Positions 24,894 through 29,591 of a DNA stretch of 64,000 bases are shown here, piece after piece. The translations under genes and the position numbers were made by a program. Position 1 is the stretch's first letter; every line of letters begins with the position of its first letter. The stretch comes from Apostichopus japonicus (taxonomy: Eukaryota; Echinodermata; Holothuroidea; Aspidochirotida; Stichopodidae). The notes under the pieces were generated by a model, which saw only the letters and a program-made list of their open reading frames with translations, searched no databases and was not told the origin of the DNA. The stretch covers positions 23,603,111 to 23,667,110 of the forward strand of contig NC_092576.1 in assembly GCF_037975245.1 (NCBI RefSeq), in the 5' to 3' direction.

Positions 24894-24989
24894 ATGGGAC
24901 CAGGCAATTTGTCTAGAGCCCTTCTGGTCGGGATCCTGTTGGCCTACTTGGTGGGAACTGTCTTGAGTGAACTAGAACTGAATCCAGAG
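24894..24989 (+). CDS. Signal-peptide exon of putative secreted precursor (exon 1)
   Basis: The ATG has a strong context (GACAAAATGG) and an in-frame TAG 42 bases upstream. It gives 32 codons ending at donor CCAGAG|GTATGG in phase 0. The peptide starts MGPGNLSRALLVGILLAYL and continues to ELELNPE: a short N-region with one Arg, a hydrophobic core of about 14 residues, small residues near VGTVLS as a likely signal-peptidase site, then an acidic stretch. Exon 29379-29591 is entered in phase 0 and continues the acidic region, so the two are joined here across a 4389-bp intron; an extra exon between them cannot be excluded. Together they predict a 102-residue secreted precursor. Confidence 0.6.
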
Positions 24990-25109
24990 GTATGGCTAAA
25001 GTATTTCATATCTGTCTTATAAATTGATCCTTTATTTGATAGTCCCGCTCCTAGTAGGCACTTGTCTTTGTTCTATCTGCACACGACGTGTAAAATAGAT
25101 AAGATTTAA

Positions 25110-25880
25110 GAGATAATTTGGCCTCCTTCTAGTATGCGCACACATATAATATGTACATAATGTGTATGCACATATACTGAAGTGCATGTACTTCTCATAA
25201 AGTCATGCGCGCGAACATATATGTTTACAAAAAGCAAACTATTTATTCCTTCTAGTACTCGCACATATTGAATGTATATTATGTACATTCAAATATATAT
25301 ATATATATATATATATATATATATATTTATATATATATATATATATATATATATATATATATATATATATATATATATATATATATATTGTATGCACATA
25401 TAATGAAGCGCATGTACTTCTCATAAAGTTATACGCGCACATATATGTTACATAAAGCAATCTATTTATTTGTTCTAGTATGTGCACATATTACATGTAT
25501 AGAATGTACATCCATAACAATAGTATATGCACGTATGATAACGTGTGTGCACTTCTCATGAAGTCATACGCGTGCACATAGGCGTTACAGAAAGAATACT
25601 ATTTGTTCCTTTTTGTACGCGCACATTTTATGTGTATATAATGTACACTCATATGCATATATAGTGTATGCACACATAATAAAGCGCATGTGCTTCTCAT
25701 AAAGTCATGCGCATGCAATTATATGTTACAAAATGTACACTATTTATTTCTTCTAGTATGTGCACATATTACATGTACATAAACACCCATTTATATAGTA
25801 TATGCACACATAATAAGTGCGTGCACATAAAGTCATGCGCGCGCACATGTATGTTATGAAAAACACACTATTTATTCATC
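25110..25880. repeat. ~137-bp minisatellite, about five copies
   Basis: Units carry ACTTCTCATAAAGTCATGCGCG, then GTTACAAAA, CTATTTATT and TTCTAGTATGTGCACATATTACATGTA. Anchors CTTCTCAT lie at 25191, 25417, 25552 and 25693, with a degenerate one near 25828. The first interval is longer because a TA run has expanded inside the unit. It lies in the proposed intron of the poly-Gly precursor gene. Confidence 0.88.
25291..25388. repeat. (TA)n microsatellite inside a minisatellite unit
   Basis: A nearly pure TA run of about 98 bp with one TTTA interruption, occupying the place where other units have a short TATATA. Confidence 0.95.
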
Positions 25881-26355
25881 ACGATCGTACAGGATTCTTC
25901 CAAGTATAAAAGTATATAATGTTGTCCCATAATGACGTATGAAATTATTCTGTAGAATATATGTATCAGCCTGCAATACCGAAGTATTGATGGATTTAAT
26001 CCCCTCGAACCAGCAGGTTAGCCCCACCCGCTGGGGCATCTTCAGTTTCTATTTTTATCATTTTATTTCACGAAAATGTACCGATTTCCAATATCTTGAA
26101 TAGCTTACGCTTTGGTTACTCTCTAGAATTTCGGTAACATGCCTACCTAATATTTATCATGACAAAGCAAGAAGACATATTATTTTCCAATCATGCAAAT
26201 CTAGCAAATTACGAGAATCCAACCGATGCGATCATTTCCTGGTAGTACAGTAGATGCATGTATGACGTTTGCTAAACTAGTGTAGAGGTTTATCAAGTAA
26301 GAAAAAAATGAATTTTACTTCACTTCTACAATTCTTCACAAAAAGCACAAAAAGC

Positions 26356-26629
26356 AGTGACGTCCTGAGGAATTGAAAGGGTGGGGGCAAAATTCTACCC
26401 CCTCACCCACCCGGAATGATTTAGATTGGGGTCTGAAGCTTGGCGGAAGGCTTCATACCCCAATCCATGGGTCCATGGGACCCAGTAATTTGTCTAATTC
26501 TTCTCCAACTGATATAAAAACATACCCCCAAATGAACTTTTCACCCCAACTGACAACGAAGGTGATTCATTCCTCACCCCCCACCAACCCCCACCATACC
26601 CCGCCCACACTTCCATTGCGCACGACACT
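26356..26629. mobile_element. MITE-like element, CAGTG(A/T)CGT ends
   Basis: Left CAGTGACGTCCTGAGGAA and right end (inverted) CAGTGTCGTGCGCAA bound a 274-bp C-rich non-coding segment. The ends agree over their first nine bases except one. No convincing target duplication is seen. Confidence 0.5.
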
Positions 26630-27080
26630 GAGAGTGAAATGAAGATATCAATTGTAAGATATCGTACTAACAAACGTTATAAGCAGCGCATTTAATCCTC
26701 CGTATGAATTGTAGTCGACAACGCTCTTCACGACAAAATGACAATGACAAGGCTGACATCTCTACCGTAACAGGTTTTTTTTTAAGGTTAATGGGAATCT
26801 ATTTAATTACCTAATTAAAGCTGTCACCTTTACCGTACCAGGTTTTGTCACGTTTTATGAGAGACCCGTAATACAGCTTTCAGTTTATTGTCACTCTTAA
26901 AATCTAATCGAAAAACTTCAACAGAACGTCGGGAAAGTCCTCATTTAGGACCTTTAAGCCCACAGAAGGGCTGACGTGTGAAAATAGGGTTAATTGGGGA
27001 TTACTTCAAATATTTTCCGCATAATCATCTCCTCCTCGTGACGCCTGAATCGTGTATAAATCGTGTGTTATGTCTAACAC

Positions 27081-27124
27081 ATTGATACGCATTGATACGC
27101 TTTGATACGCATTGATACGCATTG
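27081..27124 (+). repeat. 10-bp tandem repeat ATTGATACGC
   Basis: ATTGATACGC is repeated a little over four times with one variant (TTTGATACGC). Confidence 0.93.
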
Positions 27125-27729
27125 TCACAACTAAGAGCGGCCATCCTGTGATCAGATTTTAAGTTCATTTTAATGAACCTTAGAGAGAGTCCCTATTCAA
27201 GAGTGAATGTTCTTATTTTATAATATTACCTACGCAATCTGTTTATAACATCACGACAAGTGGGTCTACCTGCACGCCGAGTACTTTGAAAGATGTAAAA
27301 GATGTTGCCAACCTCGACACCCTAAGAGTTGGTAGTCTATGTGTGAAGAAAGGATTAATATATGTGACATGGTATGTAATTACATCGCACATTCTATGGA
27401 ACAGCAATAATCAGATCATTTTTATTGTCCTATTGGTTTTGGCTATGTGTACTTTGGGAGACATTATTTCATTGTTAGGATATTTTCTTTCACCTCGACG
27501 GACCAATTTCCACTTTTAATTAATGATAATTTTTTTCTTCAATTTGAAGCATTATATTTGGTTTAATAAGTGATTGGCTTTAATTGTCTGCGACGAATTG
27601 TTGCAGCTGCATCGAATTATCCATAATTATTAGAAGGGGTTTGGTTTATCATCAGCAAATTCATGGTAGTCTATCCAGAGAGCTGCTACTCTAACAGTTC
27701 CCTGGTCTACCAATCCACATATAGAAAGT

Positions 27730-27788
27730 TTAAACCAGGGTGCTGCTACTCTAGAGTAGCACTCTAGAGTAGCAGCTCCCTGGTTAAA
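27730..27788. repeat. 28-bp-arm palindrome
   Basis: The left arm (27730-27757) and right arm (27761-27788) are complementary at 26 of 28 positions around AGC; both contain CTGCTACTCTAGAGT. A related single arm lies at about 27684-27706. It would form a very stable hairpin. Confidence 0.9.
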
Positions 27789-29378
27789 CAAAGACCAACA
27801 TTAAAATGAAACTTGTAAAAAAAAATCCAATGCTAATCATGAACAATGTCCCTTTCTCATAGATGGTTGTTGTTCAATACAGTGCAGCGATGTCATATGA
27901 TAACCTGTTGCATTGACTAAATTTACCTTTCAAGACACACATCACCACATCTCTGCCATCCTGTATTTGAAAACATAGCTTCTAACTTGATATAGAGGAA
28001 GGGAGTGAAACAATAACAAAAGAATTTAAATTAAAAGAATTGTCTGGTGGAAGATTTGGATACATTGTCCTCATAGTTCTTACTTTCTCTTTTTAACCAT
28101 GTGAAAATTGTCGACGTTTTCGACGTTTTCTTATTGTAGAAATCTGGTAATCAAATTCACCAGTTTCTCACCGAAAGCACCGCTTGTTAGAACACATTTG
28201 GTGAATGACGTAGTGAGTGAAGGCAAATAAGCAACACGAGCGACTTGAAGTTAGCACTCTCATTTCCGCAGCAAATACACTCTCGCGTGTACACGCACAG
28301 GTGATTGCTTATTATGTATTACGTACAACCGCTAACGTACGTATACAGCCTACCATTCCTAGTTATTTATTATGATTGTCATGGTTCCTTATATAGCTCA
28401 AATACTATAAAACATATATATTCATATGCGCTTTACATGATGAAGAATAAAACAATAATAAGAAAGAATTAAAAAAAAAATGAAGTTAAAATAAGTTAAT
28501 AAAAATAGTGGATAAAAGAATATAATAATTACATGATAAACAGTAAAAGAAATATATATCACGAAAACAATTTACGAATCAGAAATGAAGTGAATATAAA
28601 ATATAGCAAATCAGAAAATATGATATGAAATAGAAAAAAATGTAGTTGGTACGTACATATAGCGCTGCACATAATACGCTCTCACAAACCACTGTTCATT
28701 AACCGTTTTCGAAATCGCTGAAATAAAATTCACGGATCAACTTTACAGTAAAAGGAAACTTGAAAAGTATTTGGAAAATCAAAGATGAAACTTGGCGGAA
28801 TCGATGTCAGAGCAGAATGTAGTACCGAGAAGCTTTTGCTTCGTAGAACTGTCCGATTAGTGTAAACGTTAGAGTAGACTACATGCAAACATTCTTCGCA
28901 TTGGAACTGGACAGAGCGATGTATAAACAACAAAGAGTCTGCTGTTCAAACTTATCTCGTGTTACACACAATCACGAAATCACCGATGCACTATGTATAT
29001 GGCGGCTCAATGATTTTTTAAAACATATATAATTTATAAGAAATTTCACCGAAACTTAAGGAAGAAGTTAATCTGTATTCAAACGCGGTTTTTGTTGTGA
29101 TTACTGTAGTAACTGTATGGAGCGTGGGTTATGTCGCAATCTGCATTTGCGAAAATGACGTCTCGTTCTCTACTGTTAAAAGTATATCTGAAATTTTAAC
29201 AATCGTTTCACTGTCAAACGCAACATTAGCGTTCTCATAGTTTGAAAACATGTTTGGAAAATTATTTATCGTTTTTTATGGTAACTTCTAAGTGCTACCA
29301 GATAATTCTTTCAAGTAACTGATATTTTTTAGCTCAAAGACCTTACTTATTATACGTTCTAATTTTGTTTGCCAACAG

Positions 29379-29591
29379 CTCGAGGACCATAACGTAGACA
29401 AGAGAATTTTTTCTTGGTTTCACAAACTCTTCCATAGTAGTAGCGAAGAAGGAGGCGGTGGAGGAGGCGGTGGAGGAGGCGGTGGAGGAGGAGGCGGTGG
29501 AGGCGGTGGAGGCGGAGGCGGAGGCGGTGGCGGAGGAGGAGGCGGTGGCGGAGGGGGCGGCGGCGGCGGAGGAGGAGGTGGTGGCAGATGA
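29379..29591 (+). CDS. Putative secreted amphipathic/poly-glycine precursor (exon 2)
   Basis: The acceptor ATTTTGTTTGCCAACAG leads, in phase 0, into 70 codons and TGA. The order is LEDHNVDKR (acidic, ending in a Lys-Arg convertase site), then IFSWFHKLFH, then SSSEE, then 45 uninterrupted Gly, then Arg. In IFSWFHKLFH, Ile1, Phe2, Trp4, Phe5, Leu8 and Phe9 fall on one helix face and Ser3, His6, Lys7 and His10 on the other. Acidic propiece, dibasic cleavage and a cationic amphipathic helix is the plan of many animal antimicrobial peptide precursors (family knowledge). The assignment here is inference. The Gly codons are a mix of GGA, GGC, GGT and GGG rather than one expanded triplet. The final Gly-Arg could yield an amidated end. 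I know no family with this whole architecture. Confidence 0.58.
   Translation, partial: LEDHNVDKRIFSWFHKLFHSSSEEGGGGGGGGGGGGGGGGGGGGGGGGGGGGGGGGGGGGGGGGGGGGGR

Follow-up and report, generated by a model that had tools for sequence, protein, structure and literature searches.

The window analysed in this study is a 64,000-nucleotide stretch of the genome of the sea cucumber Apostichopus japonicus (C16:23603111-23667110), and its central feature is a two-exon gene, here called W, which very probably is a real protein-coding animal gene. Its product is predicted to be a secreted, convertase-processed precursor, with a Lys-Arg (KR) site that is kept in a second copy, P, on contig C10 of the genome searched (671.58 Mb, 35 contigs). 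P is accompanied by other polyglycine loci of C10, here called A, B, C, D, and E. W looks like a shortened copy of a gene from this C10 polyglycine cluster, and we see an even chance that it arose as a duplicate, now without its tail, of a gene in a cluster whose secreted polyglycine proteins make secretory matrix or adhesive material.

Translation and splice sites bear out the phase-0 join of two exons into 102 residues that had been proposed in the first-pass annotation. Exon 1 (24894-24989) encodes MGPGNLSRALLVGILLAYLVGTVLSELELNPE, exon 2 (29379-29591) encodes LEDHNVDKRIFSWFHKLFHSSSEE followed by 45 glycines, Arg, and a stop, and the donor (GAG/GTATGG) and acceptor (TTTGCCAACAG/CTC) are both in phase 0. 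The start codon lies in a good context (AAAATGG) and is preceded by an in-frame TAG at 24852, as had been stated. The joined product reads MGPGNLSRALLVGILLAYLVGTVLS / ELELNPELEDHNVDKR / IFSWFHKLFH SSSEE G45 R, in which the break between signal peptide and propiece, after residue 25, is our own judgement. The secreted character claimed at first pass agrees with an N-terminal signal peptide recognised by hydropathy scan in P and by eye in W, rather than by SignalP. The propiece of W has a net charge (K+R minus D+E, here and below) of -4, no cysteine is present in W or P, and the glycines were rightly described as having mixed codons (GGA 19, GGC 16, GGT 9, and GGG 1).

W is identified as a gene because both exon regions recur in P (G000:C10:12623824-12620442, minus strand; a 299-residue precursor) with the same order, strand, and splice sites. 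Exon 1 matches C10 at 12623824-12623729 (92% identity, E 2e-31), and the acceptor together with the first part of exon 2 matches at 12621281-12621174 (92% identity, E 2e-36). The promoter and exon-1 regions of the two copies are 80% alike over 615 aligned columns, the KR-helix segment picked out at first pass is kept in P as DKRIFSWLHKLFHSSSEE, and signal peptide, propiece, and SSSEE are likewise shared. The copies differ in what follows. The first pure run of P comprises 68 glycines. Beyond it lie further glycines mixed with Ala and Asn, then NGGSRGPNGPSGPSG, numerous repeats of the type (V/I)NRPP, a stretch of Arg, Ser, and His, and finally RRRRRDVDLDREVDSPV, with the acidic end following five arginines; the Pro/Arg-rich tail has a net charge of +32 and the end piece of -4. 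Two BLAST pieces that adjoin in W (29343-29594 and 29599-29946) lie 588 bases apart on C10, and the TGA in the glycine frame of W sits just before the point where P has these extra bases. About 590 bases of P, including the entire Pro/Arg tail, are absent from W; this point and the W/P alignment statistics rest on BLAST pieces. The layout that had been taken for a stand-alone new peptide is better read as that of a cut-down longer precursor, P adding the Pro/Arg tail and sitting among long polyglycine exons.

In the 56 codons that precede the glycines, W and P show 13 differences, nine of which are at third positions (p 0.009). The NG86 method gives seven differences at 36.8 synonymous sites and six at 131.2 replacement sites, with a ratio of replacement to synonymous rates (dN/dS) of ~0.22, and the two kinds of change differ significantly (p 0.009). 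In the intron, for which four alignments judged to be unique intron were used and exon-bearing, 3′, and repeat-like pieces were left out, 281 of 1648 ungapped columns are mismatched (rate 0.17). Synonymous change equals intron change (p 0.82), whereas change at replacement sites is reduced roughly fourfold (p 4e-5). These comparisons demonstrate constraint at replacement sites in the W/P pair, and selection acting on the W copy itself is less certain. The glycine tract has probably been reshuffled by slippage, since 20 of its 45 aligned codons differ at the third position, which exceeds the synonymous rate elsewhere.

At least five more polyglycine exons are present near P, giving at least six loci in all, on both strands over ~64 kb (G000:C10:12615636-12680000; Table 1), which is a minimum extent because the right edge lies beyond the surveyed stretch. 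Runs of at least 20 GGN codons number 14 in 105 kb of C10 (in P, A, B, D, and E), whereas the 184 kb of C16 that take in the window and its surroundings have a single one, that of W; the 60-kb flanks on both sides yielded no polyglycine exon. This imbalance makes copying from C10 to C16 likely, and copying in that direction followed by tail loss is the simplest reading; alternatively, the tail may have been gained on C10 instead of lost on C16. Predicted joins give 471 residues for A and 444 for B, both composed of a signal-peptide exon, a phase-0 intron, a dibasic site, a Trp motif, polyglycine, and a basic His/Lys/Ser tail. The exon pairing of B is a prediction that implies an intron of ~8 kb, and alternative candidate signal exons lie at 12638902 for B and, less strongly, at 12633167 for A. 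The plan from signal-peptide exon to polyglycine is found in W, P, and the predicted A and B, and is incomplete in C, D, and the partly read E. A basic tail after the glycines, absent in W, is present in P, A, and B as judged by net charge (B +23; A +10 with 24 His) and in C by sequence. A, B, and C have 313-471 residues with 158-265 glycines. A protein search with the N-terminal part of W/P returned at least four matches, all of them exons of W and P, and one with the tail of P returned at least five, three in P and two weak ones elsewhere (E 5.8 and 9.98). Gene C, which contains GRPGAMGAAGGKGRPGADGG, might be a candidate for the 'glycine-rich protein' PIK60693.1 named in excerpts of PMC7599334.

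Table 1. Features of W (window positions) and of the other C10 polyglycine loci (contig positions).
Feature	Position	Strand	Remark
Duplicated segment holding W, broadly co-linear with C10	18194..29946	+	pieces 73-88% identical, gaps between
TATA-like box TATTTAAA	24764..24771	+	by eye, no promoter tool; present in P too
W exon 1: start codon, signal peptide (~residues 1-25), first propiece part ELELNPE	24894..24989	+	
W intron, phase 0, 4389 bases	24990..29378	+	2483 bases in P
W exon 2 start: propiece remainder LEDHNVD and Lys-Arg site	29379..29405	+	KR kept in P
Amphipathic segment IFSWFHKLFH	29406..29435	+	helical moment, permutation test, single-sequence model
SSSEE acidic-serine spacer	29436..29450	+	identical in P
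45 glycine codons	29451..29585	+	W vs P differences 0, 0, 20 at codon positions 1, 2, 3
Arg and TGA stop of W	29586..29591	+	sequence
Site of ~590 bases extra in P (remaining Gly tract, Pro/Arg tail, RRRRR-DVDLDREVDSPV)	29592..29600	+	
C	12615636-12616574	+	HHGPGGRTP repeats; Gly tract interrupted by Ala
A	exon 1 at 12633446, exon 2 12635746-12637005	+	SHGHSK-type repeats
B	exon 1 at 12639427, exon 2 12647702-12648931	+	EEDKK, then FWNFWNHY, then polyglycine
D	12670086-12667947	-	mucin-like PTTKVPTT repeats
E	~12680000-12678477	-	two overlapping frames; WNNWKDW and GWRHWFGR

If W is a transposed tail-less duplicate, a segment of the C10 cluster would have been copied to C16 and the copy would then have lost its tail, leaving the signal peptide, acidic propiece, KR, amphipathic segment, SSSEE, 45 glycines, and Arg. 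The precursor would enter the secretory pathway, where a proprotein convertase would cut after KR and take off the acidic propiece; in the long relative, this propiece may offset the basic tail while the precursor is stored. Through the Trp/His/Lys segment, the released chain could adhere to other such chains, to membranes, or to sulfated glycans, and polyglycine could serve as a flexible or aggregating spacer. Because the basic tails of the long relatives would bind polyanions, the cluster product would most likely be secretory-granule material, such as an adhesive, mucus, or cuticle matrix, of which W would provide a short form without the tail. Matrix or adhesive material appears more likely as a function than a membrane-lytic peptide.

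Several points weigh against this reading. W and the cluster are known here from sequence alone; the candidate signal exon of D is out of phase with the long frame of D, none of the first-exon candidates for C was convincing, the sequence of E was read in part only, and the propiece of A is not acidic (net +4). The promoter and exon-1 DNA of A, B, and D shows no similarity to that of W/P, so common descent of A to E with W and P is a possibility suggested by layout and position. A parallel in favour of the matrix reading is the Cuvierian glue of sea cucumbers, in which, according to excerpts of PMC12472103, small (Gly) and charged residues are abundant; the outer-layer proteins of the Cuvierian organ of Holothuria leucospilota are described there as having tandem repeats and no orthologues, and they resemble the present proteins as repetitive secreted proteins of a holothurian, but they are predicted to be beta-rich. 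The parallel is indirect, since A. japonicus is not known to have Cuvierian tubules. A Cuvierian adhesive protein is moreover described there as acidic, whereas the cluster tails are basic.

It is highly improbable that W is no gene on the sense strand and that an antisense polyproline frame or an unspliced repeat matters instead. A 93-residue antisense polyproline frame is indeed present at 29420-29701, and the glycine tract by itself cannot discriminate between strands because GGN reads CCN on the opposite one; however, the sense frame shows third-position bias in the coding segments outside the tract, and the two sense-strand splice sites are conserved. We also regard as unlikely that W is a decaying relic, a tail-less duplicate of little or no use, the function being carried out by the C10 gene. 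The loss of ~590 coding bases of P with the entire tail would suit such decay, and the six replacement differences, compared with 11.2 expected with one unconstrained copy, are not clearly at odds with one copy being free and the other constrained (P value 0.07). In simulations of a neutral branch, an open frame with intact start and splice sites persisted in 27-52% of cases, or in 19-44% if the dibasic site was required as well. Yet W has no frameshift or stop ahead of the Gly end, it keeps KR, and both of its splice sites are identical to those of P. Furthermore, the Gly codons are unchanged at all 90 of their first and second positions, against ~7.7 changes expected on one neutral branch (P value 0.0005), although slippage or gene conversion could also purify the tract.

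An antimicrobial precursor, from which a convertase releases an amphipathic His/Trp-containing peptide on polyglycine, is a less likely, tentative alternative that would apply chiefly to the long copy; the host-defence role suggested at first pass thus becomes a rival to the favoured reading. In P, the peptide would be joined to a Pro/Arg-rich, antibacterial-like tail and the acidic C-terminal piece would be cut off after RRRRR; in W, the Gly-Arg end could be trimmed and amidated. The (V/I)NRPP tail is reminiscent of Bac5-like proline-rich peptides. The layout, with signal peptide, acidic pieces, and dibasic site, agrees with this role, and the two-faced helix emphasised at first pass is found in both copies, the helical moment being 0.618 for IFSWFHKLFH in W and 0.605 for the matching segment of P. 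The former value was matched by 0.3% of 20,000 same-letter permutations, a flattering figure because the segment had been pre-selected for that very property at first pass. A single-sequence AlphaFold2 model of W exon 2 alone places a helix at residues 4-19, with block values of the predicted local distance difference test (pLDDT) of 72 and 80 and a model mean of 57.7, which lends moderate confidence to helix formation by IFSWFHKLFH. In excerpts of PMC5577615, myticalin precursors join a Pro/Arg-rich cationic part to an acidic C-terminal piece via a dibasic site, and the mature part often ends in Gly-Arg for amidation; hyastatin combines Gly-rich with Pro/Arg-rich regions (excerpts of PMC11767717). 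The predicted W product IFSWFHKLFH-SSSEE-G45-R speaks against the idea: it has the amphipathic helix of a linear cationic alpha-helical antimicrobial peptide, but its net charge is 0 where such a mature peptide would be net-positive. The cationic helix of the first-pass annotation is therefore wrong for W, the ten-residue segment alone having a charge of +1 with two His. In addition, the helix is short with SSSEE directly after it, A, B, and C are long and heavily loaded with glycine, and a hyastatin-type cysteine domain is absent. If true, an antimicrobial role would be new, because a 2025 review calls holothuroidins the only characterized sea cucumber antimicrobial peptides (excerpts of PMC11767717).

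Comparison with these peptides at the level of published descriptions gives partial likenesses. The crab hyastatin resembles P in having a Gly-rich and then a Pro/Arg-rich region, but it has a six-cysteine chitin-binding domain that W and P lack, their polyglycine is pure and long, and W has no Pro/Arg part (excerpts of PMC11767717). The mussel myticalins, which are secreted and cleaved at a dibasic site, resemble P only, in that a Pro/Arg-rich part precedes an acidic C-terminal piece; they differ in having three exons and a phase-1 intron, no polyglycine is described in the excerpts of PMC5577615, and the signal peptide of W/P is by eye unlike the consensus printed there. Holothuroidins of Holothuria tubulosa are helical sea cucumber peptides, small and cationic by description, whereas the predicted W product is neutral (excerpts of PMC11767717).

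That no described family has the layout of W, as stated at first pass, was upheld in Pfam (above cut-off), NCBIfam, structure, and literature searches. P with a shortened Gly tract reached Extensin_1 (E 2.5e-13, 50.6 bits) and GRP (18.5) in Pfam, both below their cut-offs of 105 bits and 30, respectively, and the shortened W protein had no match. NCBIfam gave no match for P or W, and neither the N-terminal nor the Pro/Arg part matched a solved structure at E 10. No description of the gene or cluster was found in the open-access literature surveyed, and sequence strings tried from the gene had no match in literature text. A term search of excerpts of the H. glaberrima genome preprint (PMC13228809) found no word beginning with glycine or antimicrobial. 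An Antiholin match in Pfam for the start of gene B (E 0.06, below cut-off) was taken as chance. Among viral contigs, 29 stretches fit a short pattern and none is a relative, so a viral origin was set aside. An internal third exon in a conserved intron piece (27781-28035) was rejected because all six frames contain stops and no long one is open.

Elsewhere in the window, two apparently single-exon genes of rhodopsin-family G protein-coupled receptors lie on the minus strand at 34755-36074 and 56154-57467 (7tm_1, E 2.4e-56 and 2.4e-59) and are mutually related by eye. Two similar tRNA-Cys-like elements with anticodon aca (Rfam tRNA) and like surroundings occur on the minus strand at 20722-20796 and 21094-21168; DNA resembling both is present on C10, and they possibly represent a tRNA-derived short interspersed nuclear element. 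A probable remnant of an element of the long interspersed nuclear type is found at 32622-33119 (minus strand; zf-RVT match, E 1.3e-6). A tandem repeat with a 99-base unit occupies 12543-14309 in about 18 copies and is partly open in long minus-strand frames, and a long ATG/CAT trinucleotide array at 43557-44210, open in several frames, is likely to be repeat only.

For the holothurians, the chances seem evenly balanced that the cluster represents apparently undescribed, fast-diverging secretory genes, comprising at least six C10 loci and the dispersed W. Their precursors would be modular, with a propiece, a convertase site, a short Trp-bearing stick segment, a long spacer of polyglycine, and a basic tail that can be exchanged (PPINR, HSHSK, or HHGPGGRTP). 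W would then be a naturally truncated form in which the stick-plus-spacer half stands alone. Repetitive secreted proteins of this kind are easily overlooked by annotation. If the reading is true, a cluster with swapped tails would be a testable system for the origin of new secretory proteins, and it would provide, in a farmed animal, a set of natural proteins with polyglycine spacers for studies of adhesion or host defence.

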